From: Rhizobiales bacterium TMED25
GTDB lineage: Bacteria; Pseudomonadota; Alphaproteobacteria; Rhizobiales; TMED25
DNA length: 64,000 nt
Assembly (NCBI GenBank): GCA_002168075.1
Contig: NHCE01000007.1
Coordinates: forward strand, 1 to 64,000
Direction: 5' to 3'
Positions within the stretch are counted from its first letter, which is position 1. Each line of letters starts with the position of its first letter. Positions 8,321-30,576 of the stretch are shown piece by piece. A program made the translations under genes and the position numbers. Below the pieces are notes generated by a model. The model ran no database searches. It was not told the DNA's origin and saw only the letters and a program-made list of their open reading frames with translations.

Positions 8321-9247
8321 TTAGTTACCGGTTGAGCTGTGGCTTATGTTTGGGCCAAATGTACATGCCAATCCTAAAATAATGCCTGATACAACGGCAA
8401 TCATGCCAGCAGCACTAAGCGCATTTTCTGCACCGAACCATAGTGGCCCATAGCCAGCTAGTATGTAGCCTAGTATTGCTGATAACGTCGCAAAAGCAAC
8501 TGACCACCAGATCTGGTAAAGAAGTTTATTAGTCATCAATCTCGCAGCAGCTGGGGGGCAAATGAACATTGCGATAACAATAATTGAGCCAACCGAGTCA
8601 AATGCTGCAACAGCAGCTAAAGCCGTTATTAGCATTAATCCAAAGTTAATAGTAGATGTAGGTATACCCAAAGATCTAGCAAAACCGTTGTCAAAAGTTG
8701 CGATCTTAAGCCATCGCCAGAATATGAATATTAGAATAGATATAGAGAGACAAACAATGGCGATGCGCGGTAATTCGTCAGGCAGTGCTAAAATTGCAAC
8801 TGGATCGAATAGTGATTGCCAGCCCTCAGCTTTGAGCCATACTAGTGACTCTAAATTACCCATTAGTGCATGTTCAACGTCAAGGTGAACTTTACTAGTA
8901 TCTGTCTGTTCTAGGATTAGAACCCCACTTGCAAACATAGTCGTGAATACCACACCCATAGCTGCGCCTGGTTCAATATTTCCTAATCTTTTAATGGCTT
9001 CAATGAGAATTACCGCAATGATGGCCGCGCTGGTAGCTCCTATTAGCATTGGTACTGTTGCTACACTGCCTGTAATAAGAAATGCAATTACTACCCCCGG
9101 TAGAACAACATGGCTAATGGCATCACCCATTAGTGATTCTTGACGAAGAATTAAGAAGTTACCAGGTAGTGCGCATGCGATTGCGGAAAATATTCCAATC
9201 AATATAGGCGTCAAAGAAAATTGGATAAATTCAGTAATCATTATCAC
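8321..9247 (-). CDS. Zn/Mn-type metal ABC transporter permease (second)
   Basis: A 308-residue inner-membrane permease of the ABC-3 family (PF00950: ZnuB/MntB/TroCD/SitCD). It shows seven to eight hydrophobic helices, the FLILRQESLMGDAISHVVLPG region typical of the second membrane segment, and SIIVIAMFICPPAAARL near the fifth. It overlaps the upstream permease by 4 bp and is the last gene of the four-gene importer. The metal (Zn, Mn or Fe) cannot be decided from the permease. Confidence 0.87.
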   Translation of the reverse strand: MIMITEFIQFSLTPILIGIFSAIACALPGNFLILRQESLMGDAISHVVLPGVVIAFLITGSVATVPMLIGATSAAIIAVILIEAIKRLGNIEPGAAMGVVFTTMFASGVLILEQTDTSKVHLDVEHALMGNLESLVWLKAEGWQSLFDPVAILALPDELPRIAIVCLSISILIFIFWRWLKIATFDNGFARSLGIPTSTINFGLMLITALAAVAAFDSVGSIIVIAMFICPPAAARLMTNKLLYQIWWSVAFATLSAILGYILAGYGPLWFGAENALSAAGMIAVVSGIILGLACTFGPNISHSSTGN

Positions 9248-10455
9248 TCTCCAATAACACTATAAGAATTGATCTGAAGATCAAATTCAGCTATCTCTTC
9301 AGTAGTGAAGATATCTTCAATTGGCGTTATTCTATTATAATAGCTGCTAAGTTCCTGTTCTGGATATATTTTTCTGGCAATCTTCCATCTTCTTTCATCC
9401 ATAGATACTTTATCCATCAAATTTTTACCAGATTCAGTAATAATACCATCAGCACCCAAAAGCTTCTCTCTTGTAAGAAGTTTAAATGTATAATCGCTTG
9501 TAATTTGCTGCCCTGCAGCAAGCATTAACAACCCTTGTCTTCGATGAAGGTCTGCTTTGAATCGGTGGAATTGAATTATAGCTGAGAATATTCCACGTTC
9601 AGGAGCTAGTAAAAAAGAAAATATGAAAATTGTCGACGAGACAAGCACTATAATAGGTCCAGTCGGGAGAGCTGGCGCAGAGGCTGATAATACTGCTCCC
9701 ATAAAACCTGAAATTCCTCCAATACCGCCTGCTATCCAAATAACTCGGTATGACCGATTAGTCCAAAACCTTGCTGCAACAGGGGGAATGATAAGCATTG
9801 CAACAATAAGAATTAAACCTACTAACTTCATACCAATTACTGTTACTGCAAGAACTATTCCCATCATAATTAGATCAATTTGACGAATATTATATCCCAT
9901 TGCTGAAGCATAATCTTGATCAAAAGCAACTAAAGTTAAAGGTCTTCTCATTAACCAAGTAAAGAAAATACTAAGAAAGCCACCGATAGATATTATGATG
10001 GCATCCTGATATAGCATTCCAGCTGTTGACCCCAAGAGAAAACTCTCAAGCCCTGCTTGTCTTCCTGCACTCATCGTCTGAATAATGGTAAGAATAACAA
10101 TACCAAAACCAAAAAAAACACCAAGAACAGCACCGATAGCTGCGTCTTCAGGTAGTCTAGTTCGTCGAGAAATCCATTCAATTATGACCAGTCCAATAAA
10201 AGCTGTAATAGCTGACCCGGCAAGAAGACCAATGAGGTTTCGACCATCACCTCCGAGTAAAACCATAAAAATAAAGGCAAGCCCAACACCAGGTAATGTA
10301 GCATGAGCAATTGCATCTGAGACAAGCGCTCGTTTGCGCAAAAAAAGGAATGTCCCTGAAGATCCGGCTGCAAACCCAAGAAAAGTAGCTCCTAGAGTAA
10401 CAAGCGCAGCATTATAGCCTGCTTGAAGAAACAATGCTTCTAAAAAGGGTGTCAT
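9244..10455 (-). CDS. Zn/Mn-type metal ABC transporter permease with C-terminal extension
   Basis: ABC-3 family permease of 403 residues. The first ~290 residues carry the family core (FLRKRALVSDAIAHATLPG; GLILIVAMLIIPPVAARF). The last ~105 residues are soluble and charged, starting near HRRQGLLMLA and including LLTREKLLGADGIITESGKNLM; the helix pattern resembles the DtxR/MntR-like winged-helix tails seen on some TroC-type permeases. If so, the tail could sense metal or regulate transport. It overlaps both neighbours by 4 bp. The permease call is firm, the nature of the tail is inference. Confidence 0.85.
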   Translation of the reverse strand: MTPFLEALFLQAGYNAALVTLGATFLGFAAGSSGTFLFLRKRALVSDAIAHATLPGVGLAFIFMVLLGGDGRNLIGLLAGSAITAFIGLVIIEWISRRTRLPEDAAIGAVLGVFFGFGIVILTIIQTMSAGRQAGLESFLLGSTAGMLYQDAIIISIGGFLSIFFTWLMRRPLTLVAFDQDYASAMGYNIRQIDLIMMGIVLAVTVIGMKLVGLILIVAMLIIPPVAARFWTNRSYRVIWIAGGIGGISGFMGAVLSASAPALPTGPIIVLVSSTIFIFSFLLAPERGIFSAIIQFHRFKADLHRRQGLLMLAAGQQITSDYTFKLLTREKLLGADGIITESGKNLMDKVSMDERRWKIARKIYPEQELSSYYNRITPIEDIFTTEEIAEFDLQINSYSVIGE

Positions 10456-11189
10456 TGGGAACCTTTAGATTTAGATAATTCACTAAGGTAACTAGCAGAT
10501 AGCCTTCCCCCATAGGTTTCTTGTAAATTTTTAATAAATGTATCTTCGGTTTTCCCCTGCGCTATACCTTGAATATTGATCATAAAAACGTAGTCAAAGT
10601 AATCACTGACAGTGGATAAATCATGATGGACAGCAATAACAGATTTACCATGAGATTTTAGAAGTTTAAGTACGTCAATAATCGCTCGTTCTGTTGCAGC
10701 ATCAACACCTGCGAAGGGTTCGTCTAAAAGATAAAGATCTGCATTTTGTGCCAATGCGCGAGCGAGAAATACTCTCTGCTGTTGCCCACCGGATAGTTGC
10801 CCTATTTGTCTCTTTGAAAAATCTGCCATTCCAACACGATCAAGACACTCCTTTGCATACACAGAAAGCTGGGAAGAGAATCTCCCTAGAAGACCAACCT
10901 CACGGTAGAGGCCCATCTTTACGACATCGATTACATTAGTTGGAAAATCCCAGTCAACACTGACACGCTGGGGAACATATGCAATTTTTTCACGGATTTT
11001 TTCAATTGGCTGTCCAAAAACTAATATACTACCTGACAGTTTTGGAACAACACCAATAACAGCTTTAAGTATTGAAGATTTTCCAGCTCCATTTGGTCCA
11101 ATAATTGCTGACATAGATTCTATTGGAAACTCAGCATCCACAGATGTTACAGCAGGTTTTTTTCCATAGGAAATATTTAAGTCACACAA
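10452..11189 (-). CDS. Zn/Mn-type metal ABC transporter ATP-binding protein
   Basis: ATPase of the metal importer. Walker A GPNGAGKSS, signature LSGGQQQR and Walker B LYLLDEPFAGVD are all present. With the TTG at 11189 the protein has 245 residues but starts inside the first beta strand. The frame continues upstream as ILKKNTIIKSALTL, which looks like genuine family sequence, and no ATG, GTG or TTG is found there. An ATT at 11234 lies 8 bases after AAGAGGG and may be the real start (260 aa). It sits between the binding-protein gene (99-bp gap) and the permeases (4-bp overlap). Confidence 0.85.
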   Translation of the reverse strand: MCDLNISYGKKPAVTSVDAEFPIESMSAIIGPNGAGKSSILKAVIGVVPKLSGSILVFGQPIEKIREKIAYVPQRVSVDWDFPTNVIDVVKMGLYREVGLLGRFSSQLSVYAKECLDRVGMADFSKRQIGQLSGGQQQRVFLARALAQNADLYLLDEPFAGVDAATERAIIDVLKLLKSHGKSVIAVHHDLSTVSDYFDYVFMINIQGIAQGKTEDTFIKNLQETYGGRLSASYLSELSKSKGSQ

Positions 11190-11288
11190 AGTGAGAGCTG
11201 ACTTTATTATGGTATTTTTTTTTAGTATAGAAATTTGTATTACCCTCTTAAAATATTTGTTTATTAGATGAATACATATTCACAATCA

Positions 11289-12254
11289 CTAGAGATTATT
11301 TAGCATTCCTTTTTCCGGTGCATTACCGCCAAGAGCACGGGAAATAGAGGTAGCGTTTGAGTCAATCATCCCAATATAGGTACCCTTATAAGTATTAGGT
11401 TCACCCATTGCGTCAGAGAAGAGTTCTCCTCCTATAATCACCTCGTGACCGGCAGCTTGGGCACCTTCAACTAGTGCACGAATATTACGATCGCTCACTG
11501 AAGTTTCAATAAAAACAGCCTTCACATTGCGTTCTATTAGCATATCCACTAGTATTGAAATACGCTGAAGTCCAGCCTCAGATTCGGTAGATATCCCCTG
11601 AATTCCAATTACTTCAAAACCATATGCATTACCAAAGTAATTAAAGGCGTCGTGAGAAGTAAGCAAAATACGATTTTCTGCTGGCACCGATGAAAGAACT
11701 TTATTTGCATATCTTACAAGTTCACTTACTTTATCTAGATAGTTATTAGTATTAGCTCTGAACTCGTCTGCAGCTGATGGATTCACATTTATCAATGCGT
11801 CACGAACATTAAGCACAACACGTGACCATAAATTAGGGTTCATCCAGAGATGTGGGTCATAACGTCCTTCATAATCCTCTGAGCCAATTAGTAAGTTTCC
11901 TGGAATCTTTTCTGCGACGGCTACTACATTATTATCTAGACCAAGCTCAAGTAGAAATTCTTCCATCTGTGCTTCAAGGTAGAGACCATTCCATAAAACC
12001 AAGTCAGCATTTGCCATTGCTATAATATCAGTACGAGTCTGACGATAGGCATGTGGGTCTATACCAGCTCCCATTAGAACCTTTAGTTCTACCAAATCGC
12101 CTCCAACATTCGATACTGCGTCTGCGATCATACCCGTGGTTGCCACAACAGCAACTTTATCATTTGCTTCCGAATTGTTCACAATTGAAAAAAAGCTAAA
12201 ATTGAATACACAAAAAGCTATTAGTAAAGTTTTTGTAATTTTTAGGATAGTCAT
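11289..12254 (-). CDS. Zn/Mn-type metal ABC transporter substrate-binding protein (TroA/ZnuA family)
   Basis: Periplasmic metal-binding protein of 321 residues with a signal peptide (hydrophobic core about residues 8-25, cut near SEA at 30). The cluster A-1 fold is seen in GIDPHAYRQT, YDPHLWMNP, LLTSHDAFNYFG and GGELFSDAMG, giving probable ligands His68, His135, His201 and Asp281. Three His plus Asp is the TroA/ZnuA pattern; MntA/PsaA proteins have Glu at the third site. There is no His-rich loop as in many ZnuA. It is first in a four-gene operon with a Fur-superfamily-like palindrome 142 bp upstream. Zn or Mn both remain possible. Confidence 0.87.
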   Translation of the reverse strand: MTILKITKTLLIAFCVFNFSFFSIVNNSEANDKVAVVATTGMIADAVSNVGGDLVELKVLMGAGIDPHAYRQTRTDIIAMANADLVLWNGLYLEAQMEEFLLELGLDNNVVAVAEKIPGNLLIGSEDYEGRYDPHLWMNPNLWSRVVLNVRDALINVNPSAADEFRANTNNYLDKVSELVRYANKVLSSVPAENRILLTSHDAFNYFGNAYGFEVIGIQGISTESEAGLQRISILVDMLIERNVKAVFIETSVSDRNIRALVEGAQAAGHEVIIGGELFSDAMGEPNTYKGTYIGMIDSNATSISRALGGNAPEKGMLNNL

Positions 12255-12507: not shown

Positions 12508-13674
12508 TTAAGCATTTTCGTTGGAAACCCAATCTCTGATATTATCACCAAATGCTTCAAATCCGTTTTCAGTAACAATTACTGTATCCTCAAGTTTAAT
12601 AAACCCAATACCATCGTACTTGAGGTCGGTTTCTATTGATAGAACCATTCCTGACTCTAAAGCCTTATCTTTGTATGGAGCAGGGTAGGGGATTATACCC
12701 TTATCATATATATGGGGTGCTTCATGTTGTATCATTCCCATACCATGCGCAACAAATTTAAAATCTAAATTTTTATCACAACAGCTAATTTCTTTATAGG
12801 CCTCTTCTAGTAAATCTTGCCCTGTGATACCTTGATGTATTACTTTTCTTGGTGCATCATTAATGGATCTTACCTGCGATAGTAAATCAATCATTGTATC
12901 TGTTGGCTCACCAATGACAGCCATTCTGCATAAGTCACCCAAATACCCATCAATATTTGCACCAGAGTCCAGCGATAGGATATCTCCTTTATTCCAAAAT
13001 AATTTATCAGATGGCGTCCTATTATAAGAATTTCCAGCTGCAACAAGGCAATATTCAAAATTCATACCAAAATTTGTTTCTTCCTCTTTTAGCGCTTGTG
13101 CAATAGATTTAGTATCAGTACCAGGCTTAGTTCCTTTCATAACTTTTTCCATTGAAGTTGTTATAAAATTAGAACTATTTCTTAAAAGATTTAATTCAAA
13201 TTCTGTTTTTACCGCTCGTAGCTCTTGCATTAAGACTAGGACATCAACAAATTCTGCATCTGGTAAATTTTCTTTAAGCGCCATATAAGTATCTGTCGGC
13301 GTATTACAAAATTCTATTCCAATCTTTTTATCTGAATACCCAAGTTTTTTAATCTTTTTTGCAGCCTCTTCGCCAGCTTGTTTTGTGTTCCATTGAATAT
13401 TTTGAATATTATTTATCCAAAGTGGTTCTACTTCTTGCTGCTGAGACTCAAGCATATGTCCAATATAAAATGCATCTTCTGGCTTAAATTTCGGATATCC
13501 AAGTGTAGGAAGGTATCTACTAATACCAATTGCATCTTTTTGAGCAAAGAAAAAAAATTTATATCCACCTAGTAAATATTGAGCTGTATTCTTATCATTG
13601 ATAAGTAAAAAATCAATTCCTTCAGCGTCAAGTAATCTATCAAGTTTATCTATGTTGAAAGGAATTTGCATCAA
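12508..13674 (-). CDS. M24 family metallohydrolase (Xaa-Pro peptidase/creatinase fold), copy 1
   Basis: Two-domain protein of 388 residues: an N-terminal creatinase-like domain (to about 155) and a C-terminal pita-bread catalytic domain. Metal ligands are visible: Asp236 and Asp247 (LSLDSGANIDGYLGDL), His310 (VAHGMGM), Glu348 (SIETD) and Glu362 (KLEDT). The position three before Pro221, His in aminopeptidase P, appears to be Asn218, so it may hydrolyse a C-N bond in a small molecule and not a peptide. It follows the flavin monooxygenase by 8 bp and ends the unit starting at 17304. Substrate unknown. Confidence 0.82.
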   Translation of the reverse strand: MMQIPFNIDKLDRLLDAEGIDFLLINDKNTAQYLLGGYKFFFFAQKDAIGISRYLPTLGYPKFKPEDAFYIGHMLESQQQEVEPLWINNIQNIQWNTKQAGEEAAKKIKKLGYSDKKIGIEFCNTPTDTYMALKENLPDAEFVDVLVLMQELRAVKTEFELNLLRNSSNFITTSMEKVMKGTKPGTDTKSIAQALKEEETNFGMNFEYCLVAAGNSYNRTPSDKLFWNKGDILSLDSGANIDGYLGDLCRMAVIGEPTDTMIDLLSQVRSINDAPRKVIHQGITGQDLLEEAYKEISCCDKNLDFKFVAHGMGMIQHEAPHIYDKGIIPYPAPYKDKALESGMVLSIETDLKYDGIGFIKLEDTVIVTENGFEAFGDNIRDWVSNENA

Positions 13675-13682
13675 TTTTTTCC

Positions 13683-14882
13683 TTATAATGTTGGACTTTG
13701 AAAATCATTTTTTAATCGATTTTTCCCCCATTGTGAAAATTGCATATCTTGATTAAAGTGAATATGAGTTGAGCAAGCTTGTACATCCATCAAAGCTTTG
13801 GTAATGGGCGATGAGTTATATATTCCATTAGCACCAGATACTTGCTGCATAATAGAAATTGCTTCTAGCACTATTTGAACTGAGTAAGCAGCATTTCTTT
13901 TATATTTTAGTTTATTTTGCGTAGATATTTCATTATCAAGATTCATTAGATTTTCTACCTCAATACAATCGCTTCTTAATATTAGCCTTGCAGCGTCAAT
14001 TCTAGATGAAATTTCACCAAGTCTATTATGTATTGAGGGTATATCTGACATTTTTATATTTGAAGTGCTGGTTGATCTACTCTCAATCCAATCAAACAAT
14101 AAATCAAGGCATAATTGTGCGCCCCCAATAGAGCATCCAGCTAACCCGTGCCCACCAATTGATGCTGTGGGTATCTGATACATAAGATTTTTGTTTTCTT
14201 TTATACCCTTGAAAAAATGCCCTTCACGATTGACCGAGAATGACTGAATTTTATAGTCAGGAACAAAAAGTTCTTCAATCTTTACTGAACAACTTCCAGT
14301 CTGCTTCATACCATAAGTATCCCAGTCATTCAGTACTTCATAGTCATCTTTATGAAGAACACATTGGCACCAGTCTTTTTTACCATTTTCATCAAGCATA
14401 AAAGCAAAGAAGGACCAGTCTGATATCTCAATGCCTGAGCAGAAGTTCCATAAACCTGATAGCATTATTCCATTAGGTACTTTTCTTGCCTGACCTTGCT
14501 GATAGATATTTCCAGCAGCAATCAGCATATCTGGATTTTTCGACCATATCTCTTCTTGAATTTCTGGATCAAACACAGCAAGTGTTCTATGATGTGATGC
14601 CATATTAGCTACAATCCAACCTGTTGAGCAGTCACCCCTTGAAATTATCTCTGGGATATCCAACCAAGCTTGAAAATCTAACTCCATACCTCCCCATTTT
14701 TTTGGTTGGAAGTATCTAAAAAGACCTTCTTTATGAATCAAATCGACAATATCTTGGGATATAGAAGTTCCTTTATTAAAGGCTTTAAGTTGCCTTAATT
14801 CTGGAATAACGGACAGAGCTCTATTATTAGCAATGTCATTTGTTAATGATGTAAATTTTGAGTCTTTTATTTTTTTTAGCAT
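13683..14882 (-). CDS. Flavin-dependent monooxygenase, acyl-CoA dehydrogenase fold
   Basis: A 399-residue protein of the acyl-CoA dehydrogenase-like group D flavin monooxygenases (relatives: HsaA, HpaH/C2 hydroxylase, DszC). Typical segments are PKKWGGMELDFQAWLDIPEIISRGDCSTGWI in the N-terminal helical part, GLWNFCSGIEISDW in the beta domain and the C-terminal helices. The CoA-dehydrogenase catalytic Glu region is not conserved, which favours oxygenation with reduced flavin from a partner reductase; no reductase gene is adjacent. It lies 8 bp before the M24 gene and 41 bp after the amidohydrolase gene. Ring hydroxylation is a likely reaction, substrate unknown. Confidence 0.75.
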   Translation of the reverse strand: MLKKIKDSKFTSLTNDIANNRALSVIPELRQLKAFNKGTSISQDIVDLIHKEGLFRYFQPKKWGGMELDFQAWLDIPEIISRGDCSTGWIVANMASHHRTLAVFDPEIQEEIWSKNPDMLIAAGNIYQQGQARKVPNGIMLSGLWNFCSGIEISDWSFFAFMLDENGKKDWCQCVLHKDDYEVLNDWDTYGMKQTGSCSVKIEELFVPDYKIQSFSVNREGHFFKGIKENKNLMYQIPTASIGGHGLAGCSIGGAQLCLDLLFDWIESRSTSTSNIKMSDIPSIHNRLGEISSRIDAARLILRSDCIEVENLMNLDNEISTQNKLKYKRNAAYSVQIVLEAISIMQQVSGANGIYNSSPITKALMDVQACSTHIHFNQDMQFSQWGKNRLKNDFQSPTL

Positions 14883-14923
14883 GATATTTATTTCTGAAAT
14901 ATTATTCCTTAGATTTAAATTAA

Positions 14924-16009
14924 TTATTTAAAGTCTGATTCAGATAGATTGAGTAGTTTTAATGCATTAAGTCCACAAATTTTTTCTCTATCTTCTTCAG
15001 TGATACTCTCAACTTGATATACATGCTCAACGGGATCATGTTCTGCCATATCTGCTGGGTAGTCAGTTCCAATTGCAACGTGATCAGCGCCGTATTTTTT
15101 AATAAGGAACTCGAGTTGGTCAACAGCAAATACGAGTGTATCAAAATAGAATTGTTTTAAATATGTTGTTGGCTTTTCATATATTTTCTGTCTAGCATCT
15201 ATTCTAGCCCCATAAGCATGATCCATTCTTGCTGCATAACTTGCTGGGAAAGCTCCACCATGTGATAGATAAAACTTAATTTTTGGATATCTTGCCATAA
15301 CACCATCAAAAATGAGATAATGAACTGCAACCGTGGTATCAAGCGGATTTCCAATTACATTTAGCATATAATGCTCGCCAAACCGATCACTGTAAAAAGA
15401 GGAGGGGTGGATAAATATTAATATATCCAGTTCTTCACACCTTTTCCAGAATGGTTCCAAACGAGGGGCTGATAATTCTTCATTTCCAACTCTGGCTCCG
15501 ATTTGAATACCTTTGAAACCAAGTTTGAAACATCTTTCGAGCTCTTTAATTGCAAGATCTGTATTTTGTAGTGGCACAGTTCCCAATCCAGTTAATCTCT
15601 TTGGATTTGTTTTAACAGTATTAGCAATATTATTATTAATAATCTCAGCAGACTCAGCACATAAATTTTTATCTACCATATAAAAAAATTGTTGAGGTGA
15701 ACACGACAGAGCAGATACATCTAAGAGTGATTTATCCATTTGAGCTAATCTTATATCAATATCTGTAAATGGTATTTCACGGTCTTCAGATTGTTTTTTA
15801 TTAGTATTCATAGTTAATTCACTTGCAACACCAACAGATGGATGAAAATCTTTTGGAAGATGAGGTTTCACAAGAATATCCGCATCTGGGGTTCTTACAT
15901 GATTATGCAAGTCTACTGTTAGTGTTTTTGGACGATTTGATACACCGTTTACATGTTCTCGACCAGCGGTTGGACCATAAGGCCTCATTTCAATATCGTG
16001 TTGCTTCAT
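14924..16009 (-). CDS. Amidohydrolase, ACMSD-like (PF04909)
   Basis: A 361-residue TIM-barrel metalloenzyme resembling aminocarboxymuconate-semialdehyde decarboxylase and gamma-resorcylate decarboxylase. Metal-site text is visible in order: VDLHNHV (residues 32-38, first two His), FIHPSS (about 203-208), LSHGGAF and AIGTDYP with the final Asp. It likely decarboxylates or hydrolyses a ring-derived acid. It starts after a 10-bp-stem hairpin that separates it from the alpha/beta hydrolase, and precedes the flavin monooxygenase. Placed in a probable aromatic-type pathway; exact reaction open. Confidence 0.78.
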   Translation of the reverse strand: MKQHDIEMRPYGPTAGREHVNGVSNRPKTLTVDLHNHVRTPDADILVKPHLPKDFHPSVGVASELTMNTNKKQSEDREIPFTDIDIRLAQMDKSLLDVSALSCSPQQFFYMVDKNLCAESAEIINNNIANTVKTNPKRLTGLGTVPLQNTDLAIKELERCFKLGFKGIQIGARVGNEELSAPRLEPFWKRCEELDILIFIHPSSFYSDRFGEHYMLNVIGNPLDTTVAVHYLIFDGVMARYPKIKFYLSHGGAFPASYAARMDHAYGARIDARQKIYEKPTTYLKQFYFDTLVFAVDQLEFLIKKYGADHVAIGTDYPADMAEHDPVEHVYQVESITEEDREKICGLNALKLLNLSESDFK

Positions 16010-16051
16010 TTTTTCATTCTCTTCTAAAGATTTAGCTATTATAAAAATTCA

Positions 16052-16085
16052 CATACCCGAACGAAATAAGAAGCATTCGGGTATG
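16052..16085 (-). terminator. Strong intercistronic hairpin (terminator or processing site)
   Basis: CATACCCGAA (16052-16061) and TTCGGGTATG (16076-16085) form a perfect 10-bp stem with a 14-base loop. On the minus strand it is followed by GTGAATTTTTAT, a short T run. It lies between the alpha/beta hydrolase stop and the amidohydrolase start, so it may end or reduce transcription within the unit. Confidence 0.6.
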
Positions 16086-16092
16086 TATTAAA

Positions 16093-17304
16093 TTACTCCC
16101 ACCAATTACGTGCGTCTTTATTTTCGCCTTGCTTGGCATTTGGCCCACTTCCATTTGTACGAAGATACATTTTTTTATTATGACCTGCTGTAATCTTACC
16201 ATTAAAGACATCAACTAGCCAATCCATGCACATCATATGGCAATCATGCCTATCTTGTCCGGTACCTTTAAACATAACGGCTTGGTGATATGTATCCTCA
16301 TAAACCCAAAGCTCTTTTGGTGCAGTTACTTTATCATAGAAATTATATACAAGTTCAACTGGGCTTCTTGAGTCGTATTCGCCGACTGTTAGTAGTATTG
16401 GACATTTAATATCTTTTTCTCTACCTTCGACTGTCATTTGAGCTACAATCTTATCTAGTTCTTCTTCACTACTTGCTCCTGTAAGATATCCAAATAGTTG
16501 TTTATATCTTGGCGAAAAAGTATCCAGAATATAATATTTATCAAGATATGATGCCCAAGGTCCAACAACACCTTTTATCCTTGGATCACCGGAGGCCGCT
16601 ACTTCTAAACCCCAATGAGAACCCATGGATACTGCAAAGATTCCAATTTTATCTTTATCTACTTCAGGTCTTGTTTCGAGCCAATCTACAATCTTTAAGA
16701 CTGCTCTTTCATAATTCCCGTGAGTTAATTTCTGATTACGTATATTACTCATACCCTGCCCAGGTCCATCAATCACGAGAAGGTGCATCCCTCTTGCATG
16801 AGCTTCAACAACTTTTGGATCTGGCCACATTTCTTTAGTCATATCACAGCCTGGTATGAAAATCATAGTTGGCGCAACGTCAACACCGGGGCATAAGAAA
16901 AAGTTACATTGTAATTGCATATCTTCAAAAGGTATTTCAACTCTCTCAATGGTGTATGGGGCAAGTTCAATAACTTTTTCAAAATTGGCAATACATCTGC
17001 CATGAAGGTATATTTTTTCATCATTAGTCTCTAGAACTGGATGCTGAGCTGCTGCAAACTTTGCAGAAGCCCTGTAGTATAGGTCAAATGCAGTTGACTT
17101 ATGACCGGCCTGCTCTTCTTCCAGAGCAACCTTTTCTAGTCTCTGTGCCTGCTTACCTAAATGCTTTGAAATTTGTCCATGACTTTTTACTGAAGCTGGA
17201 AGTTCTCTACCTTCTTCATCCCAATGAAATACGCGACCGGTTTCCTTCACTATCCAATCATAAATCCATTGGTGTCCATCTCTATTTAATCTTGGTGTAC
17301 GCAT
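16093..17304 (-). CDS. Alpha/beta hydrolase (FrsA/DHPON hydrolase-like)
   Basis: A 403-residue hydrolase with a helical N-terminal cap region and a C-terminal alpha/beta fold. The probable triad is Ser226 in FAVSMGSHWG, Asp311 in VGEYDSRSP and His340 in DTYHQAV; the elbow is A-x-S-x-G where most members have G-x-S-x-G. The layout matches 2,6-dihydroxypseudooxynicotine hydrolase and FrsA relatives, which cleave C-C bonds in ketones. First gene of the minus-strand unit running to 12508. A role as C-C hydrolase is inference. Confidence 0.78.
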   Translation of the reverse strand: MRTPRLNRDGHQWIYDWIVKETGRVFHWDEEGRELPASVKSHGQISKHLGKQAQRLEKVALEEEQAGHKSTAFDLYYRASAKFAAAQHPVLETNDEKIYLHGRCIANFEKVIELAPYTIERVEIPFEDMQLQCNFFLCPGVDVAPTMIFIPGCDMTKEMWPDPKVVEAHARGMHLLVIDGPGQGMSNIRNQKLTHGNYERAVLKIVDWLETRPEVDKDKIGIFAVSMGSHWGLEVAASGDPRIKGVVGPWASYLDKYYILDTFSPRYKQLFGYLTGASSEEELDKIVAQMTVEGREKDIKCPILLTVGEYDSRSPVELVYNFYDKVTAPKELWVYEDTYHQAVMFKGTGQDRHDCHMMCMDWLVDVFNGKITAGHNKKMYLRTNGSGPNAKQGENKDARNWWE

Positions 17305-17454
17305 TCTATATCCTCCATTATTTGATTTTTAGTTATGAAATTCAATTATTAATTTACTCGATATAATTTATAGGATAAATAATACACATTTGAAATACAA
17401 AAATCGAACATTCAAGTTTAGCCTATTCACTATATTAAATTAAGTCATAAATAA

Positions 17455-18672
17455 ATGGTTTTGTCACTAAAATTTCCCTCTTTGATTAGTAAAGACTTTC
17501 AAAAGTATACTGCTGGTAATTTTTTTGCCATGAATGGTATCTGGATAAATCGAGTAATAATAGGTTGGCTTGGCTGGGAACTAACTAATTTGGCTTCATG
17601 GGTTGGATTTCTATCATTTCTTTTATTTGCACCCACCATAATTGCTGGACCAATTTTTGGTGTTATTATTGATAGAATTGATATCAAAAAATTTGCTATA
17701 TATACTCAATCAATTATTTCCATTACAGTTTTTATACTATGGTTCCTCTATTTTTTTGGTTATTTAAATATTTACAATTTATCTGCGATAGCACTTAATA
17801 TTGGCGTATTCACAAGTGCCGATAGAGCTACCAGGATGTCATTAGTTCCAAGAATTGTTGATAGAGATACGCTTGCTAATGCAATAGCTGTTCACGGAAT
17901 TAATTTTAATTCGGCTAGATTAATGGGGCCTGCATTAGCAGGTATTCTCATCAAGGTTATTGGATTTAAAGCAACAATCTTTATTAATTTTCTATTTCTA
18001 ATTATCATGCCATTAACACTCTATATTATAACAGTAAAAGATAGAGATGCCTCTAACCAAAAAAAGAAAAATCTCTTCTCTGAATTTCTTGATGGAGTTA
18101 GGTTTGTTTTGAACCATACAGTTATATTTGAGGCTTGTGCAATTACCGCTGTATTCTCTTTTTTTGCACGGGGGACTGTTGAAATATTCCCAGCGATAGC
18201 AGGTGGAGTATTTGAAGTTGGTGCTGGAGGATTAGGTCAAATGATGGCAACGGCTGGAGCTGGAGCACTGGTTGCTGCTATATTTATTGCTATGAGAAGA
18301 TCTAAGGATCAAGAAAAGGGTATTCCCCTGAGAGTTTATTTTTCATCTTTTATGGGCTTGGTCGCCATAATAATCTTAGCAATATCTAATAGTTGGTTAA
18401 TTGCTTTATCTTCAATTTTTATCATCGGCTACAGTATGACTGTCAATGGGATTGATCTACAAGCGGTTGTTCAGCTTGAATTAAATGACTCATACAGAGG
18501 TAGGGTGATGAGTTTATGGGTTGTTTTAGTTATTGGCTTAGCAGCAATAAGTGCTATCCTAATGGGAATTTTTGGTGATTTGATTGGTATAAGAAATATA
18601 CTAGTAATCTCATCTCTTTTGGGTATAACATCCTTGATAGCATTATTATTGCTACTAAAGAAGAAGATTTGA
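17455..18672 (+). CDS. MFS transporter (MFS_3/DHA3 type)
   Basis: A 405-residue integral membrane protein with about 12 hydrophobic helices. The loop between helices 2 and 3 reads GVIIDRIDIKKFAIYTQ, the usual G-x-x-x-D-R pattern, and ADRATRMSLVPRIVDRDTLANA is characteristic of the MFS_3 group (PF05977; EntS- and MefA-like exporters). It stands divergent from the alpha/beta hydrolase and is followed 46 bp later by an oxidoreductase gene on the same strand, so the two may be co-transcribed. Export or uptake of a small organic compound is likely. Confidence 0.83.
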   Translation: MVLSLKFPSLISKDFQKYTAGNFFAMNGIWINRVIIGWLGWELTNLASWVGFLSFLLFAPTIIAGPIFGVIIDRIDIKKFAIYTQSIISITVFILWFLYFFGYLNIYNLSAIALNIGVFTSADRATRMSLVPRIVDRDTLANAIAVHGINFNSARLMGPALAGILIKVIGFKATIFINFLFLIIMPLTLYIITVKDRDASNQKKKNLFSEFLDGVRFVLNHTVIFEACAITAVFSFFARGTVEIFPAIAGGVFEVGAGGLGQMMATAGAGALVAAIFIAMRRSKDQEKGIPLRVYFSSFMGLVAIIILAISNSWLIALSSIFIIGYSMTVNGIDLQAVVQLELNDSYRGRVMSLWVVLVIGLAAISAILMGIFGDLIGIRNILVISSLLGITSLIALLLLLKKKI

Positions 18673-18718
18673 CTGCTATAATGCAAAAGTCTATTAAATC
18701 AAAGATTGTAAAGCTAAT

Positions 18719-19708
18719 ATGAAAACTGCTGTAATTGGACTCGGGTGGTGGGGAAAAGTAATAGTTAAAAACCTCAGCAAAAGTAAAAAAATTAACATCA
18801 TTTGTGGCGTTGATAAAGATATTACACACCTCCAAGATTTTGCCAATGAATACAAGATTGAACTAAGAACTGATTATGAATCAATTCTATCTGATAGTAA
18901 TATTGAAGCTGTAATATTAGCAACTCCTAATACATTGCATCATATTCACATAATAGAGGCTGCAAAGGCCGGTAAACAAATCTTTTGTGAAAAACCGCTT
19001 TCCTTGAGCGCCAGCGATGCAAGAGAAGCAATCGATTTTTGTAAAAAAGAAGGTCTTATTCTGGGGCTAGGGCATGAAAGACGATATGAATCGGCAATGA
19101 AAAGTCTTTTTAAACATGTCGAAGATGGTGATATTGGAAATGTGCTTCACGTTGAAACTAATTTTAGTCATGATTTATTCAAAGTACTTGAAAAAGATAA
19201 TTGGAGATTTAACCCAATTGATGCCCCAGGCGGCGGATTTACGGCAAGGGGTATTCATCTTACTGACTTCATGGTGCATATGTTTGGTAGAGCAAAAAAA
19301 GTATATTCAACAATGACGAGTATTGCATATGAAAAGCCGCGTATTGATACTATGTCTGCAAATATAGAATTCTATTGTGGTATTACTGGTATTGTCTCCG
19401 TTTCAATTGCTACACCTTTCTATGGAAGGTATACAGTTTTTGGAGATACTGGTTGGATTGAAGCCAGAGAAGTAAATAATTTTGAGCATGATGATCCAGG
19501 TGAACTTGTTTTATCAAAAAAAGGGGAAGACAGGTTGGTCACATTACACTCTCACACAAATACTGTATTAGAGAATTTTGAAGCTTGGTATGACGCAATC
19601 TATGACGGCCCAGCTTATCCTATTACACCGGAGGAAATGCTTGCAAATATTGAGATATTTGAGGCTATCGTCAAATCAGGTGAGAGTGGAAAAGTTATAG
19701 ATATATAG
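18719..19708 (+). CDS. Gfo/Idh/MocA family NAD(P)-dependent oxidoreductase, second copy
   Basis: A 329-residue dehydrogenase. The Rossmann start is VIGLGWWGKVI and the catalytic Lys motif FCEKPLSLS lies near residue 93. GGGFTARGIHLTDFMVHMFG in the C-terminal domain is typical. It is a paralogue of the gene at 7345-8319, sharing GLGWWGK and a similar length. It follows the MFS gene, so it may act on the transported compound. Substrate unknown. Confidence 0.85.
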   Translation: MKTAVIGLGWWGKVIVKNLSKSKKINIICGVDKDITHLQDFANEYKIELRTDYESILSDSNIEAVILATPNTLHHIHIIEAAKAGKQIFCEKPLSLSASDAREAIDFCKKEGLILGLGHERRYESAMKSLFKHVEDGDIGNVLHVETNFSHDLFKVLEKDNWRFNPIDAPGGGFTARGIHLTDFMVHMFGRAKKVYSTMTSIAYEKPRIDTMSANIEFYCGITGIVSVSIATPFYGRYTVFGDTGWIEAREVNNFEHDDPGELVLSKKGEDRLVTLHSHTNTVLENFEAWYDAIYDGPAYPITPEEMLANIEIFEAIVKSGESGKVIDI

Positions 19709-19760: not shown

Positions 19761-20321
19761 TTATACTTTTATCTCTGCGCGTTTATTTGCTTCATTGAAT
19801 GTTTTATGAGATTGCTCGACCTCATACTGTTGCTCTTCTAAAGTATCAGGTTCCCATGAGCTTTTGTCCGCTTCAAAAAAGTCGCCTCCATATATATGTA
19901 AGGCACATGTGAATTTATTGGTTGGATTTATAACTGAATGTATAATATCACTGCCAAGAGGCACGGCGTCGAATGTCTCGAGAGACTTTGCACCAGCTGC
20001 TTCAATTTTTCCATTTTCTTTATTATCCAGTCTTCTCCAAAATATATTATCTTCTCTACCGGAGTATACCCCGATAGCTGCCCACATATTATGATTATGA
20101 GGCATTATTGACATGTTAGGTGTCCAAACTACGTTTAAAATTGAAAACTTATCAGACTGATAAATTTTTTGAATTCCACCTTGGGTCGGTTCTCCAAACT
20201 GGTCAAATAATTGATTTGGACTTTCAATGGCTTTTGATAATATATCCATCACAGCTTTGTGATTATTTTTTTGTCCAATCCTATTATCACAATCTTCAAT
20301 AAATCTATTTAAATCAAACAT
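19761..20321 (-). CDS. Cysteine dioxygenase-family cupin protein
   Basis: A 186-residue single-domain cupin. Iron ligands appear as MPHNHNMW (His75 and His77) and a further His in IIHSV (128) or LHIYGGDF (142). The G-x-Y-x-G-R-E-D-N segment after the first motif fits the cysteine/3-mercaptopropionate dioxygenase family, which oxidises small thiols to sulfinates. It is alone on its strand between two plus-strand genes. Thiol substrate and physiological role are not certain. Confidence 0.72.
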   Translation of the reverse strand: MFDLNRFIEDCDNRIGQKNNHKAVMDILSKAIESPNQLFDQFGEPTQGGIQKIYQSDKFSILNVVWTPNMSIMPHNHNMWAAIGVYSGREDNIFWRRLDNKENGKIEAAGAKSLETFDAVPLGSDIIHSVINPTNKFTCALHIYGGDFFEADKSSWEPDTLEEQQYEVEQSHKTFNEANKRAEIKV

Positions 20322-20431: not shown

Positions 20432-21601
20432 ATGAAAAGTAAAAAACCTAGAATATTAAATAAAATATACGCCCTAGATGATCTTGAATATTATGCTCGG
20501 AAACATTTACCGAGACCTGTTTTTGGTTATGTTTCAGGTGGTGCTGAAAGAAATGATACACTCAAAGGTAACTTTGATGATTTATCAAAATATAAGTTTA
20601 TTCCGAATATTCTCAGAAATGTCTCTGGCCGAACAATTAAAAAGTCAATATTTGGGCAGGAATGGAATGCCCCCTTCGGTATTTCTCCAATGGGTGTTAG
20701 TGCTTTGGCAGCATATAGGGGTGATTTAGTTTTGGCTGAAGGGGCTAGAAATATGAATATTCCTATGATGATAAGTGGTTCTTCGTTGATCCCTATGGAG
20801 GAAATTATCAAGGTTGCTCCTGAGACATGGTTTCAAGCCTATCTACCAGGGGAGCATGATAAAGTAGAAAAATTAGTTATGCGCGTCAAAAATGCTGGCT
20901 TTAAAACTCTTATTTTAACCGTAGATGTATCCGTATTAGCTGGCAGAGAAAATAACTTGAGAAATGGTTTCTCAACTCCGCTGCGACCATCTTTGAAATT
21001 ATTATATAATGGGATGGTGAGGCCAAATTGGTCTATAAATACATTTCTAAAAACTTTATTTTTGCATGGAATGCCGCATTTTGAAAATTTTTTAGCTGAA
21101 AGGGGTGAACCGGTATTCTCTGCTTCTGTTAACCGAGATTTTGGGATGCGATCAAATTTAAACTGGGCGCATCTTGAGCAAATAAGAAATATTTGGGATG
21201 GTAACTTAATTGTGAAGGGTATCCTAAATAAGGATGACGCGATAAAAGCATCTTCGCTGGGAGCTGATGCAATAATTATTTCAAATCATGGTGGTCGGCA
21301 ATTAGATTCAGCAATTTCCTCAATAAGGGCGCTTGAGAATATAAGGCCTCATATAAACCAAGATTGTAAATTATTTGTAGATAGCGGTTTTCGAAGAGGT
21401 ACGGATGTTATAAAAGCACTCTCACTTGGAGCAGATTTTGTTTTTATTGGTAGGCCATTCTTATATGCAGCATCAATTGCAGGATTGGCCGGGGTTGAAC
21501 ACGCAATTAATTTACTGATGGAAGAGATTGACAGAGACATTGCTTTGATTGGTGTCAATAGCTTAGAGGAATTAAATAAAGAATTGATTCATATCGATTG
21601 A
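20432..21601 (+). CDS. FMN-dependent alpha-hydroxy acid oxidase/dehydrogenase
   Basis: A 389-residue member of the LldD/glycolate oxidase/mandelate dehydrogenase family. It has FGYVSGGAERNDT near the N-terminus, Lys262 in IVKGIL contacting FMN, and the catalytic base His286 in SNHGGRQLD. It oxidises L-2-hydroxy acids to 2-oxo acids. The region between the barrel strands 4 and 5 is long, as in membrane-associated dehydrogenases. Its stop abuts the stop of the convergent gene at 21602 with no intervening base. Lactate is one candidate, others fit equally well. Confidence 0.85.
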   Translation: MKSKKPRILNKIYALDDLEYYARKHLPRPVFGYVSGGAERNDTLKGNFDDLSKYKFIPNILRNVSGRTIKKSIFGQEWNAPFGISPMGVSALAAYRGDLVLAEGARNMNIPMMISGSSLIPMEEIIKVAPETWFQAYLPGEHDKVEKLVMRVKNAGFKTLILTVDVSVLAGRENNLRNGFSTPLRPSLKLLYNGMVRPNWSINTFLKTLFLHGMPHFENFLAERGEPVFSASVNRDFGMRSNLNWAHLEQIRNIWDGNLIVKGILNKDDAIKASSLGADAIIISNHGGRQLDSAISSIRALENIRPHINQDCKLFVDSGFRRGTDVIKALSLGADFVFIGRPFLYAASIAGLAGVEHAINLLMEEIDRDIALIGVNSLEELNKELIHID

Positions 21602-22567
21602 TTATTTTTTTATAATTCCAGTTGCAATCAAATCTTTCTTCATTTCATATTTCATTTCGTCACTCATTGGAATCACGGGAGGTCTTGTCTTTCCACCTTT
21701 CATACCAATTAATTCTTGCCAGTATTTCATTTCAGCAATTGGCATTCTTCCGCTATTCCAGTATCCCATTATCCATTTTGCATGCAATTCTCTCAGCGGT
21801 TGTAATGTCTTTGCAATTGCTGTTGCTTTATTTATATCTCCCTCTTGGGCGGCTTTTGTATATTGATTTAGTGGAAGCCACTCCTTAGTTTGGTATAGGT
21901 GTGGATTATAATTAACAAGCCATTGAAGTCCCAGCTGTGTCATACTGGTTAACCAAGGCGCTTCATCAGCAACTGATATCACTAATTCTTTACCAACAGC
22001 ATCAATTATAGCGTGTGTTGATGCTGGTGAGCCATCAGCTTGTTTAAAACCGCAAATATTATCAAGTTTTGATAGCCTTCTTGCGAGTTTTGCAGATATG
22101 GGATGACAATTTTGAGGTACATTAAATAAAATTATTCCTATATCAACATTTGCACATATATACTCATAAAACTGATATACAGTCTCATCATCTCTTGCGG
22201 CAACATATGGCGTCAGGACAATAATGAAATCATATCCGATATCTTGGGCATGTTTTGCTAGAGAGACAACCTGTTTGACTGATTGATGATGGCAGCCAGC
22301 AATCATAGGAATTTTGCCTCTAGCTTGATCTAGCATTACCTCATGAGCATACATTCTTTCATCATCTGGCATTGACCAAAATTCAGCTATATTACCAGAG
22401 CAATAATGACCATCAACTTTTATATTATTGATTATATGATCCATATTGGATCTATTTGATTTTTCGTCAAATTTATCGTTTTGGTCCCAAGCATATGGCA
22501 TTGCTGTCCAAATACCTCTCAATATTTCTCTTGCAGCTTCTTTTGCTTCCGCTTTATTATATTTCAT
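21602..22567 (-). CDS. DapA-superfamily aldolase/lyase
   Basis: A 321-residue (beta/alpha)8 protein of the dihydrodipicolinate synthase/N-acetylneuraminate lyase superfamily. The Schiff-base Lys is Lys175 in ICGFKQADGS. Two family hallmarks differ: the Y-N-x-P tyrosine is Phe148 (LFNVPQNC), and the G-T-T-G-E loop reads SGNIAEFWSM. It is therefore not a standard DapA, and a retro-aldol, decarboxylating or hydrolytic reaction on a 2-oxo acid is more likely. It lies 19 bp after the beta-hydroxyacid dehydrogenase gene, probably in one transcript with it. Confidence 0.78.
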   Translation of the reverse strand: MKYNKAEAKEAAREILRGIWTAMPYAWDQNDKFDEKSNRSNMDHIINNIKVDGHYCSGNIAEFWSMPDDERMYAHEVMLDQARGKIPMIAGCHHQSVKQVVSLAKHAQDIGYDFIIVLTPYVAARDDETVYQFYEYICANVDIGIILFNVPQNCHPISAKLARRLSKLDNICGFKQADGSPASTHAIIDAVGKELVISVADEAPWLTSMTQLGLQWLVNYNPHLYQTKEWLPLNQYTKAAQEGDINKATAIAKTLQPLRELHAKWIMGYWNSGRMPIAEMKYWQELIGMKGGKTRPPVIPMSDEMKYEMKKDLIATGIIKK

Positions 22568-22586: not shown

Positions 22587-23507
22587 CTATTTTCCGAAGG
22601 GAACATCGTCAATACCTTCTCTTTCCTTAAGACCTGCCATACCTCTTAAAATTTCATAAAACGAAACAGTATCTTTTTCACTATATCCTTTTTCAAACGC
22701 TGCTTGATAACATTGAGATATCGCCGAGGTTACTAACATTGGAGAACCGAGTATTTGGCCTTGCTCAAGCATTAATCTATTATCTTTCAGAGATGTTTTT
22801 ATTTGGCCCTGTTTTGAATAGTCAGCATTTATCATTTTAGGCCCTTTATCTATCATTGTTTTTGATGAAGCAGCTCTATCTTTTAGAACTTCAAGCAGAT
22901 TATTTTGCTCTAATCCAGCTTTATCACCAAGAACAAGACCTTCAGCAAGTGCAAGCCTATTTCCAGCAAGTATAAGGTTAATAACTAATTTAGTCCTAGC
23001 TCCTGATCCAACAGGTCCCATATAATAGGCTGCTCTACTAAAACCCGAAAAGTAACTTTGGCATGCGTCAAAATCTTCTTTTTTACCTCCGGATATAATA
23101 ATTAAATCACCAGCTTGAGCCATAACACTCGTACCGCTTACAGCTGAGTCTAGAAATTTAATTCCTTTTTTTTCAAGTTCAGCGGAAAGACTTATTGAGT
23201 CTTCTGGGCGTGAGGTCGTCGTATCACATACATAGAGATTTTTACTATTTGCTCCCTCTGATATACCATTAGGGCCAATTGCTGCCTCTCTTGCTATAGA
23301 ACTATTCGGAAGTGACATAATAACACAGTCCACATCTTTTGCCGCATCAGCAGGTGTATTGACGGCTGTTCCACCATGTGCACGAAGATCATCCATTCTT
23401 TTGGGATCAACATCAAATCCTTGGATAATAAATTGAGATTTTTTCATATTTGAGATAAAGGCTTGTCCCATCAGGCCCATACCAACAATACCAATTTTCT
23501 TTGCCAT
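22587..23507 (-). CDS. NAD(P)-dependent beta-hydroxyacid dehydrogenase
   Basis: A 306-residue protein of the 3-hydroxyisobutyrate/tartronate semialdehyde reductase family. The N-terminal GIVGMGLMGQAF is the dinucleotide motif, VSGTSVMAQAG the substrate loop and Lys173 in SGARTKLVINL the catalytic Lys. It probably reduces or oxidises a short 3-hydroxy acid. It lies 28 bp after the quinone-oxidoreductase-like gene and 19 bp before the DapA-like gene, so the three likely form an operon. Confidence 0.83.
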   Translation of the reverse strand: MAKKIGIVGMGLMGQAFISNMKKSQFIIQGFDVDPKRMDDLRAHGGTAVNTPADAAKDVDCVIMSLPNSSIAREAAIGPNGISEGANSKNLYVCDTTTSRPEDSISLSAELEKKGIKFLDSAVSGTSVMAQAGDLIIISGGKKEDFDACQSYFSGFSRAAYYMGPVGSGARTKLVINLILAGNRLALAEGLVLGDKAGLEQNNLLEVLKDRAASSKTMIDKGPKMINADYSKQGQIKTSLKDNRLMLEQGQILGSPMLVTSAISQCYQAAFEKGYSEKDTVSFYEILRGMAGLKEREGIDDVPFGK

Positions 23508-23535: not shown

Positions 23536-24519
23536 TTATAGTTTTATTATTATTTTTCCAACTTGTTTATTATTCATCATATATTTTCGACCGTTATCTA
23601 TATCATCAAAATCAAAAACTTTGTCAATAATTGGTTTGTAATTATCTTTTCCTAAATATGGTAATATTTTTCTCTTAAAACCATTTATCGTAGATTTAAT
23701 ATCCTCTTTCTGTATGAAAGCATTAGATATTCCATGAACACTTATACGTTTCGCATGGATCTTTCTGAGATCAAGAGAAGTTTCAAAAACACCATCCATA
23801 TAACCAACATTTACAATAATTCCTTTGTATTTAAGAGTGTTGAGGGATGCATTAAATACTGAACCACCTAAACAGTTTATTGCTAAATCAATCCCATTTT
23901 TAGAGTATTTTATGATTTCTTCTTCAAGTTGTTGTGTGGGTGTAATGATGCCATAGTCCATCCCAATATTCTTCAATTGGCTAATTTTTTTTGGAGAGGT
24001 TGAGGTTCCGATGATACGTGCTTTTAAAATATTACCAATCATTAGAGCTGAAATACCAATTGCAGAAGATATAGCTGTGATCAGCATTACCTGACCCTTT
24101 GACAATTTTCCATATGTTACAACTGCATCGTATGCAGCAAGGTAACTTACTGGAATAGCAGCGGCTTCTTCCCAAGAATATCCATCTGGAATATCCATAA
24201 GCTGATATTCTTTGAGCAGGGCATATTCAGTAAAAGACCCTGATGAAGTACCGAGGACTCGTCCCATAATTTTGTCCCCAATTTTATACCTCTTTATATC
24301 CTTGCCAGTTGAAATAATCTCACCAGCAGCCTCAGTTCCAGCTGGTTTTTCTCTATCCCCATGCATTATTCCACCCACAATAAAACCACCACGATTTAAT
24401 CCTGCGGCTTTTACCTTTATTAAAACCTCATCATCTTTTGGGGAAGGTTTAGATATATTTTTTAGAGTAAGAGTAGTAACTCCATCAATAATTTCTATAA
24501 AATAGGCTTTCAAATTCAT
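23536..24519 (-). CDS. Medium-chain dehydrogenase, quinone oxidoreductase (zeta-crystallin) type
   Basis: A 327-residue NAD(P)H-dependent reductase. GLNRGGFIVGG, AGTEAAGEI and the AAAIPVSYLAAYDAVVTYG segment are typical of zinc-free quinone oxidoreductases; the zinc-binding Cys and His residues are absent. The usual AxxGxxG nucleotide loop appears as AISSAIGISA. First gene of the minus-strand trio ending at 21602. It may reduce an enone or quinone intermediate. Confidence 0.78.
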   Translation of the reverse strand: MNLKAYFIEIIDGVTTLTLKNISKPSPKDDEVLIKVKAAGLNRGGFIVGGIMHGDREKPAGTEAAGEIISTGKDIKRYKIGDKIMGRVLGTSSGSFTEYALLKEYQLMDIPDGYSWEEAAAIPVSYLAAYDAVVTYGKLSKGQVMLITAISSAIGISALMIGNILKARIIGTSTSPKKISQLKNIGMDYGIITPTQQLEEEIIKYSKNGIDLAINCLGGSVFNASLNTLKYKGIIVNVGYMDGVFETSLDLRKIHAKRISVHGISNAFIQKEDIKSTINGFKRKILPYLGKDNYKPIIDKVFDFDDIDNGRKYMMNNKQVGKIIIKL

Positions 24520-24580: not shown

Positions 24581-25426
24581 ATGCCAAATAAAAATATTGA
24601 TGGAGTAAATATTGAATTCGAAATCATCGGTAATGGCAAACCAATACTAGCTCTTATGCCTGGTGCCCGCAGGGGGTATCTTGAGATGAAAAGTTTGGCA
24701 GAAAAAATTGCAGAGAATAATATAAGAGTCTTATTACATGATAGGCGAAATACAGGTAAGTCGGATCTTCTAATTGATGATATAGAAACCGAAGAAATAA
24801 CTTGGTCTAGAGAATTAAATAAATTACTTAAGTCATTGGATGAACAATATATATTCATATCAGGATCTTCTTCTGGTGCTAGGACATCATTAATGTATGC
24901 ACTAGAGTTTCCAAGTGATTTAATAGGTATGATAATCATGAGAGTAACCGGTGGTGAATTTGCCGCAAAGAGACTCCCAGTTAATTATTATGAGGTATTT
25001 ATTGAAGCCGCAAAGTCTGGAGGAATGGAAGCAGTTTGTGAAACGAAAAGATTTATGGAATATATTAAGACAAACCCTGCAGTGAAAAAACAGCTTATTG
25101 GGATGGATACAAAAGAATTTATAAAGATACAATCCAGCTTATTATCGAAATTTCTAGCAGGTGCAGAATTACCTGTAATGGGTATAACTGAGATGGAATT
25201 AAATTCAATTAAAACACCTTCATTGGTGATCCCAGGAAATGATAATACTCATAATTCAAAAAGTGGAATTATTGCTCATAATATGTTGGGTAACAGCTCA
25301 CTGCATCAACTACCAATAGATGACGTTGATGTAGATTTGATACCTTGGGAAGATTGGCTGCCCTATGAAGATGAAATTGCAGATGAAATGTCAGATTTTA
25401 TAAATAAAATTATGAAAGGTATCTAA
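24581..25426 (+). CDS. Alpha/beta hydrolase
   Basis: A 281-residue soluble hydrolase. The oxyanion region is ALMPGARRGYLEM, followed by LLHDRRNTGKSD, and the nucleophile elbow is ISGSSSGART with Ser97. The late Asp and His of the triad are less clear: VIPGNDNTHN holds a likely Asp, while the last His (around SSLHQLP) is tentative. It is a single plus-strand gene, divergent from the reductase gene and convergent with the M24 gene. Ester or C-C bond hydrolysis possible. Confidence 0.75.
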   Translation: MPNKNIDGVNIEFEIIGNGKPILALMPGARRGYLEMKSLAEKIAENNIRVLLHDRRNTGKSDLLIDDIETEEITWSRELNKLLKSLDEQYIFISGSSSGARTSLMYALEFPSDLIGMIIMRVTGGEFAAKRLPVNYYEVFIEAAKSGGMEAVCETKRFMEYIKTNPAVKKQLIGMDTKEFIKIQSSLLSKFLAGAELPVMGITEMELNSIKTPSLVIPGNDNTHNSKSGIIAHNMLGNSSLHQLPIDDVDVDLIPWEDWLPYEDEIADEMSDFINKIMKGI

Positions 25427-30563: not shown

Positions 30564-30576
30564 GTTATGTGATCAT

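Follow-up and report, generated by a model that had tools for sequence, protein, structure and literature searches.

A candidate catabolic locus of the marine OCS116 clade joining a predicted C-C hydrolase, an ACMSD-like metalloenzyme, a group D flavin monooxygenase and an M24 metalloenzyme

The stretch of DNA studied here (the window) is the initial 64 kb of a 161.5-kb contig (NHCE01000007.1) of Rhizobiales bacterium TMED25, a marine alphaproteobacterium of the OCS116 clade with a genome of 1.42 Mb (~98% completeness), and our subject is a group of four genes on its minus strand. A reading made from the sequence only, without database searches, had proposed that these genes, with short gaps between them, form a degradation module. 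The four open reading frames are indeed intact, the intergenic gaps are 83, 41 and 8 bp (in the order in which the genes are given below), and searches of Pfam, NCBIfam and the PDB uphold the families of the four proteins:

16093-17304, minus strand: ABH, an alpha/beta hydrolase with a helical N-terminal region, of the DHPON hydrolase/Ayg1/AntI/FrsA fold group (403 aa)
14924-16009, minus strand: ACMSD-like metalloenzyme of PF04909, probable decarboxylase (361 aa)
13683-14882, minus strand: FMO, oxygenase component of a group D two-component flavin monooxygenase, HPAH C2/HsaA type (399 aa)
12508-13674, minus strand: M24 metalloenzyme (Creatinase_N + M24), prolidase/aminopeptidase-P-like (388 aa; TTG, then ATG directly)

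The degradation-type character of the locus and the enzyme types proposed for it hold good, and the four genes are co-located in OCS116; the sequence-only reading had, however, spoken of N-heterocycle or aromatic breakdown, and breakdown of N-heterocycles specifically is no more than a possibility. We see roughly even chances that this is a lineage-specific catabolic locus of OCS116, one of several paralogous modules, that would act on a (hetero)aromatic or related cyclic acid.

ABH carries its nucleophile at Ser226 (SMGS), with Asp311 (EYDSR) as candidate acid and His340 (YHQA) as candidate histidine. Its best PDB sequence match, at 26% identity, is the 2,6-dihydroxypseudooxynicotine (DHPON) hydrolase of the nicotine pyridine pathway (2jbw), and the same structure heads the Foldseek matches (E 4.2e-16, TMq 0.59) of a predicted model (mean pLDDT 63) in which the helical N-terminal region is present; Wdyg1p, Ayg1p, FrsA and AntI follow, and some further matches are to acyl-peptidase structures. 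Compared with the triad of DHPON hydrolase (Ser217-Asp300-His329), the serine and the aspartate of ABH align, and His340 lies in the expected place, beyond the printed 2jbw alignment. As for Glu248, the tautomerisation residue of DHPON hydrolase, the position given by the Ser217/Asp300 numbering offset falls on a Trp, and a nearby Glu aligns with Phe263. DHPON hydrolase cleaves a C-C bond via an acyl-enzyme (PMC6122326), AntI trims polyketides (PMC11165489), and both, like the Yg1 proteins, are C-C bond-cutting enzymes (PMC6122326, PMC11165489). From these fold relatives C-C cleavage is the likely predicted activity of ABH, FrsA being the exception among them. The label "DHPON-hydrolase-like" is justified by fold, but not as a statement of orthology, since a nearer relative is encoded elsewhere in the genome (C1, ~394 kb; L085:8014-10183), beside a PF04199 cyclase: it is 38% identical to DHPON hydrolase over 241 aa and scores 137 bits against the 2jbw fragment, versus 65 bits for ABH. 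The L085 protein is the better candidate for DHPON hydrolase activity. The other genes of the nicotine pyridine pathway are not at the locus.

The second protein finds its best PDB match in ACMSD, an enzyme of the kynurenine pathway (37% identity over 277 residues). It retains the zinc ligands H35 and H37, recognised by their HxH motif, and H201 and D316, placed by alignment to 2wm1, as well as the catalytic H250 (His228 of ACMSD) and the carboxylate-binding intersubunit "gatekeeper" R261 (Arg239), residues whose roles in ACMSD have been described (PMC11650718) and which are invariant in all the homologues checked. To this extent the protein may be called ACMSD-like; the position of Trp191/194, however, is occupied by Asn (N217), in this protein as in nine out of nine homologues checked. 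Trp194 is required for full decarboxylation of ACMS by ACMSD (PMC11650718), and we rejected a direct identity with ACMSD because of this replacement. A search of the genome for 3-HAO gave no match, but the controls gave none either, so that it is uninformative.

The assignment of the third protein to the group D flavin monooxygenases stands: the similarity is near full-length and the equivalents of HPAH His120, Ser171 and His396 are kept, Ser171 of HPAH being a flavin-stabilising residue (flavin N5) and His120 being associated with the substrate phenolate (PMC10696468). Unlike HPAH, it has neither the substrate-binding Arg263 (Ala or Pro there) nor Ser146 (Ala), and with 202.9 bits against the curated HsaA profile, for which the cut-off is 450, and a score also far under the HPAH cut-off, it can be considered neither HsaA nor HPAH proper.

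Finally, the M24 protein had been described as creatinase-fold, which is correct as far as the fold goes; its five metal ligands (D236, D247, H310, E348 and E362) are all present, and its best matches are to prolidase and aminopeptidase P (proline dipeptidase 3q6d, E 1.4e-24, versus creatinase 1chm, E 5.6e-07), so that a creatinase was rejected. M24 is a peptidase family, and this invites a different view of the whole group, as an amide- or ester-cleaving module in which ABH would be an esterase or amidase, the ACMSD-like protein a hydrolase and FMO a late step, with, for instance, peptides or acylated phenols as substrates. The FrsA and acyl-peptidase structures among the ABH matches are in line with this, as is the inclusion in PF04909 of hydrolases such as those of meta-cleavage compounds (5vn5/6e6i). 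The top matches of ABH, both in sequence and in fold, are nevertheless C-C hydrolases, and the ACMSD-like protein keeps His250 and Arg261 and matches decarboxylases first; we think that such a module is quite unlikely.

The ABH orthologues of the clade are under strong purifying selection: dN is about 0.03 within the genus and 0.07 for L032, and synonymous sites approach saturation (dN 0.029 and dS 1.84 at L024, a locus of the same genus; other loci are saturated at synonymous sites). Because this selection holds across the clade, the four genes are not chance open reading frames but constrained ones. We also observed that the L032 copy of ABH (L032:10001-11209) is just 90% identical to that of the window, and the L023 copy 96%, although the neighbours of the L032 gene mostly resemble the window more closely than do those of the L023 gene; gene-level recombination, or a faster change of ABH in L032, may be involved.

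The order ABH, ACMSD-like, FMO, M24 recurs with near-constant gaps in all ten readable loci of the same genus (one of them truncated within M24), and those with enough flank also have the following protein-coding neighbours arranged alike:

17305-17454, between ABH and the MFS gene: divergent intergenic region of 150 bp, presumed promoter region in both directions
17455-18672, plus strand: MFS transporter (MFS_3/TIGR00900), exporter-type family, EntS-like, by family match
18719-19708, plus strand: GFO/IDH/MocA dehydrogenase, by family match
19761-20321, minus strand: cupin without Pfam match, related to thiol dioxygenases (mercaptosuccinate dioxygenase, cysteine dioxygenase)
20432-21601, plus strand: FMN-dependent alpha-hydroxyacid dehydrogenase, by family match
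21602-22567, minus strand: DHDPS-family aldolase/lyase, by family match
22587-23507, minus strand: enzyme of the 3-hydroxyisobutyrate dehydrogenase family (HIBDH), by family match
23536-24519, minus strand: quinone oxidoreductase (QOR)/alcohol-dehydrogenase-like protein, assigned by eye (21% identity to an annotated NADPH:quinone reductase of Haloarcula)

The divergent transporter and dehydrogenase that the sequence-only reading had added to the four genes are thus found as proposed. A promoter and terminator scan yielded no excess of sites over shuffles, and in the 150-bp spacer consensus promoters were likewise no more numerous than in shuffled sequence. The cupin (186 aa, without NCBIfam match either) contains an HNH motif at 75-77, and its H128 and H142 are conserved. 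Its AlphaFold model (mean pLDDT 47) was uninformative; it was a profile search that placed it near the thiol dioxygenases, through weak matches (E 2.6e-06) to those acting on mercaptosuccinate and cysteine.

The catabolic stretch extends past 12508-19708, up to about 36.3 kb. Its second part (24581-36319) holds an alpha/beta hydrolase, an M24 enzyme, a TPP enzyme, CaiB-like and CitE-like proteins, an ABC transporter, a CMD-like protein, an AKR and a PF04909 protein of 302 aa, and its pair of M24 and TPP enzymes is seen again in the same genome at about 396-399 kb of C1 (L085).

Outside OCS116 the picture is different. Among 60 relatives, a close ABH orthologue was found in the family of the host only, one further genome of the order having a 44% homologue, and in a sample of 289 genomes of the class the four genes occurred together in no further genome at the thresholds applied. 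Close ABH orthologues (68-72% identity) do exist in other alphaproteobacteria; their usual neighbours are an SDR, a histidinol-dehydrogenase-like gene and three PF04199 cyclases, joined by a TRAP transporter in the loci whose flank extends far enough. Partial sets recur independently in unrelated organisms: in an unrelated alphaproteobacterial family (L072), 8.5 kb contain a PF04909 amidohydrolase together with relatives of FMO (29%) and ABH (42%); in Rhizobium (L113) an FMO relative directly adjoins a gamma-resorcylate decarboxylase; and in Haloarcula (L112) a cyclase, a quinone reductase (QOR), three amidohydrolases and an Xaa-Pro peptidase accompany an ABH relative (36%), this peptidase giving no match to the M24 protein of the window at E 1e-5. 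A relative of the ACMSD-like protein is found in Novosphingobium with two genes of the fumarylacetoacetate hydrolase family, a VOC protein and an MFS transporter. As to M24, relatives at 42% lie on plasmids of Rhizobium and Sinorhizobium (L109, L110), within a conserved set of a Tm-1-like ATP-binding protein, a phosphoenolpyruvate-hydrolase-family protein, a cupin and an Xaa-Pro peptidase. The occurrence of the genes independently of each other in relatives had been named in advance as a reason to give up the module; within OCS116 they stay together, and outside it they are found apart.

It is fair to set out what weighs against a common catabolic function. The four-gene order, unbroken in the ten same-genus loci, is split in the sister genus, where L030 has 4.9 kb with a divergent three-subunit molybdenum hydroxylase and a TauD-family gene between the ACMSD-like gene and FMO. 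Nearly all the genes from about 7 to 64 kb are collinear with the sister genus, ribosomal-protein genes included. The flanks of the close ABH orthologues outside OCS116 are mostly without homologues of FMO, the ACMSD-like protein or M24, the identity of the locus enzymes to characterised ones is low (about 26-37%), and the MFS protein matches the TIGR00900/EntS-type exporter family. Lastly, the locus has no flavin reductase and the four-gene unit no ring-cleavage dioxygenase; since a two-component monooxygenase needs a reductase, that of FMO must act in trans. The genome offers two candidates, PF01613 flavin reductases on other contigs (C6, at 171831, and C9), both unlinked to FMO, the one on C6 sitting within another module with GFO-, HIBDH- and M24-like genes.

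The insertion of L030 (L030:12446-17172, opposite strand to the four genes) means that in this genome FMO cannot share a transcript with ABH, and because of it we rejected the generalisation that there is "one conserved operon"; the contig of L031, also of the sister genus, reaches into the start of this insertion and stops there. In L030 and L032 an additional FMN-dependent dehydrogenase follows M24, for which the genome studied here has no close orthologue (best 37%). Moreover, because the background is equally collinear, conserved order within OCS116 is weak evidence when taken alone, and we do not accept it as proof of a module. One may then suppose that the four genes are neighbours without a shared pathway, ABH with the ACMSD-like protein and FMO with M24 serving two functions, adjacent through the generally stable gene order of OCS116; the insertion, the collinear background and the separate location of the nearest homologues outside the clade all agree with this. 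Against it stand the short, near-constant gaps in every same-genus locus, the partial sets of unrelated organisms, and the fact that several genomes have kept the four genes while a non-orthologous operon has taken the place of the metal ABC operon next to them. We regard separate functions as rather unlikely. The metal ABC operon of the window (8321-12254) comprises a binding protein, an ATPase and two permeases; the operon in the same spot in L024, L028, L032 and G012 has a binding protein with 25-29% identity.

The same insertion can be turned to another use, since the cluster of the sister genus encloses a molybdenum hydroxylase and a TauD gene, and DHPON hydrolase is the best structural match of ABH: the locus could be devoted to N-heterocycles in the manner of the nicotine pyridine pathway, with the molybdenum hydroxylase acting first, followed by side-chain removal of the DHPON type, ring hydroxylation and ACMSD-like decarboxylation. 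Molybdenum hydroxylases, however, also have aldehydes and other compounds as substrates, the window's own genus is without one at the locus, and ABH is distant from DHPON hydrolase, to which the genome offers a closer relative. Such a dedicated pathway appears improbable to us. The exporter-type MFS protein, for its part, would suit a small biosynthetic or detoxification locus, as opposed to a pathway of nutrition, and Wdyg1p, Ayg1p and AntI, fold relatives of ABH, serve polyketide pigment biosynthesis; but the locus is without synthase or ligase, the neighbouring dehydrogenases, aldolase and amidohydrolases and the contexts of relatives look catabolic, and the genes are retained throughout a clade with streamlined genomes, all of which makes this a very improbable reading.

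We thus return to a catabolic locus. The family and fold matches, the retained active-site residues, the constant gene order of the same-genus loci, the partial sets of unrelated organisms, the Novosphingobium context and the molybdenum hydroxylase of the sister genus all speak for it. The genes, their conservation, their order and the active-site residues are observed; the order of reactions, their sharing of a pathway and the class of substrate are inferred from family membership and conserved residues. The catalytic residues are compatible with a decarboxylation, the hydroxylation of a phenol and a cleavage by hydrolysis. The ACMSD-like zinc enzyme would decarboxylate a substrate that bears a carboxyl group: His250 would activate the water bound to the metal, and Arg261 would grip the carboxylate. 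FMO, with reduced flavin from a reductase encoded elsewhere, would hydroxylate a phenolate by means of its Ser171 and His120 equivalents, and ABH would hydrolyse a C-C bond adjoining a carbonyl (retro-Claisen type) with its candidate Ser-His-Asp triad. M24 may hydrolyse an amide or similar bond, releasing or trimming the substrate, and the GFO/MocA, alpha-hydroxyacid and hydroxyisobutyrate-type dehydrogenases, together with the DHDPS-type lyase, could process the fragments.

By analogy, the putative pair of decarboxylase and group D hydroxylase resembles the gamma-resorcylate (gra/tsd) operon, and the predicted C-C hydrolase resembles DHPON hydrolase. Indeed, in the gra/tsd operon on the Rhizobium acidisoli plasmid (L113) a PF04909-type decarboxylase is the direct neighbour of a group D monooxygenase, and an MFS transporter lies close by; but identity is 29.5% for the monooxygenase and 25% for the decarboxylase, the window adds ABH and M24, and none of the partners (linked flavin reductase, hydroxyquinol dioxygenase, maleylacetate reductase) is among the genes scanned from 12.5 to 23.5 kb. 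On the features tested, the locus is a member of neither the gra operon nor the nicotine pathway.

In the open-licence literature, which was searched partly with narrow terms and whose silence is weak evidence of absence, we found no described pathway with exactly this set, as had been suspected from the sequence, nothing specific on the gene set or on OCS116 catabolism, and no paper naming the genes that OCS116 uses for recalcitrant dissolved organic matter (DOM). As far as this literature goes the combination is new; the individual enzyme families are known. A bolder proposal, which we consider unlikely, is that a common (hetero)aromatic of the sea is degraded aerobically by a route that has yet to be described, fixed in a clade linked to recalcitrant DOM, in which an ACMSD-subfamily decarboxylase bearing Asn for Trp, a group D hydroxylase and a C-C hydrolase of the DHPON/AntI type would replace the usual ring-cleaving dioxygenase.

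The genome gives nine matches to PF04909, nine to M24 and 20 to GFO/MocA (18 of the last above the family cut-off), and the same enzyme families are reused at loci L075-L077, L085, L086 and L091. This recalls the paralogous catabolic expansions for recalcitrant DOM of SAR202 (PMC5395668), likewise a marine oligotroph with many oxidative and hydrolytic paralogues, although SAR202 belongs to another phylum and its expansions concern other enzyme families, with group C monooxygenases dominating. OCS116 are uncultured ocean oligotrophs which field studies tie to recalcitrant DOM, and the clade is named among the lineages possibly using it (PMC7575717, PMC8957919); the locus supplies concrete candidate enzymes for this use. 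Should the pathway prove real, a clade-wide and strongly conserved gene set would be linked to a class of aromatic compounds in the sea; should it not, there still are, in a genome of 1.42 Mb, many paralogous modules of hydrolases, decarboxylases and dehydrogenases.

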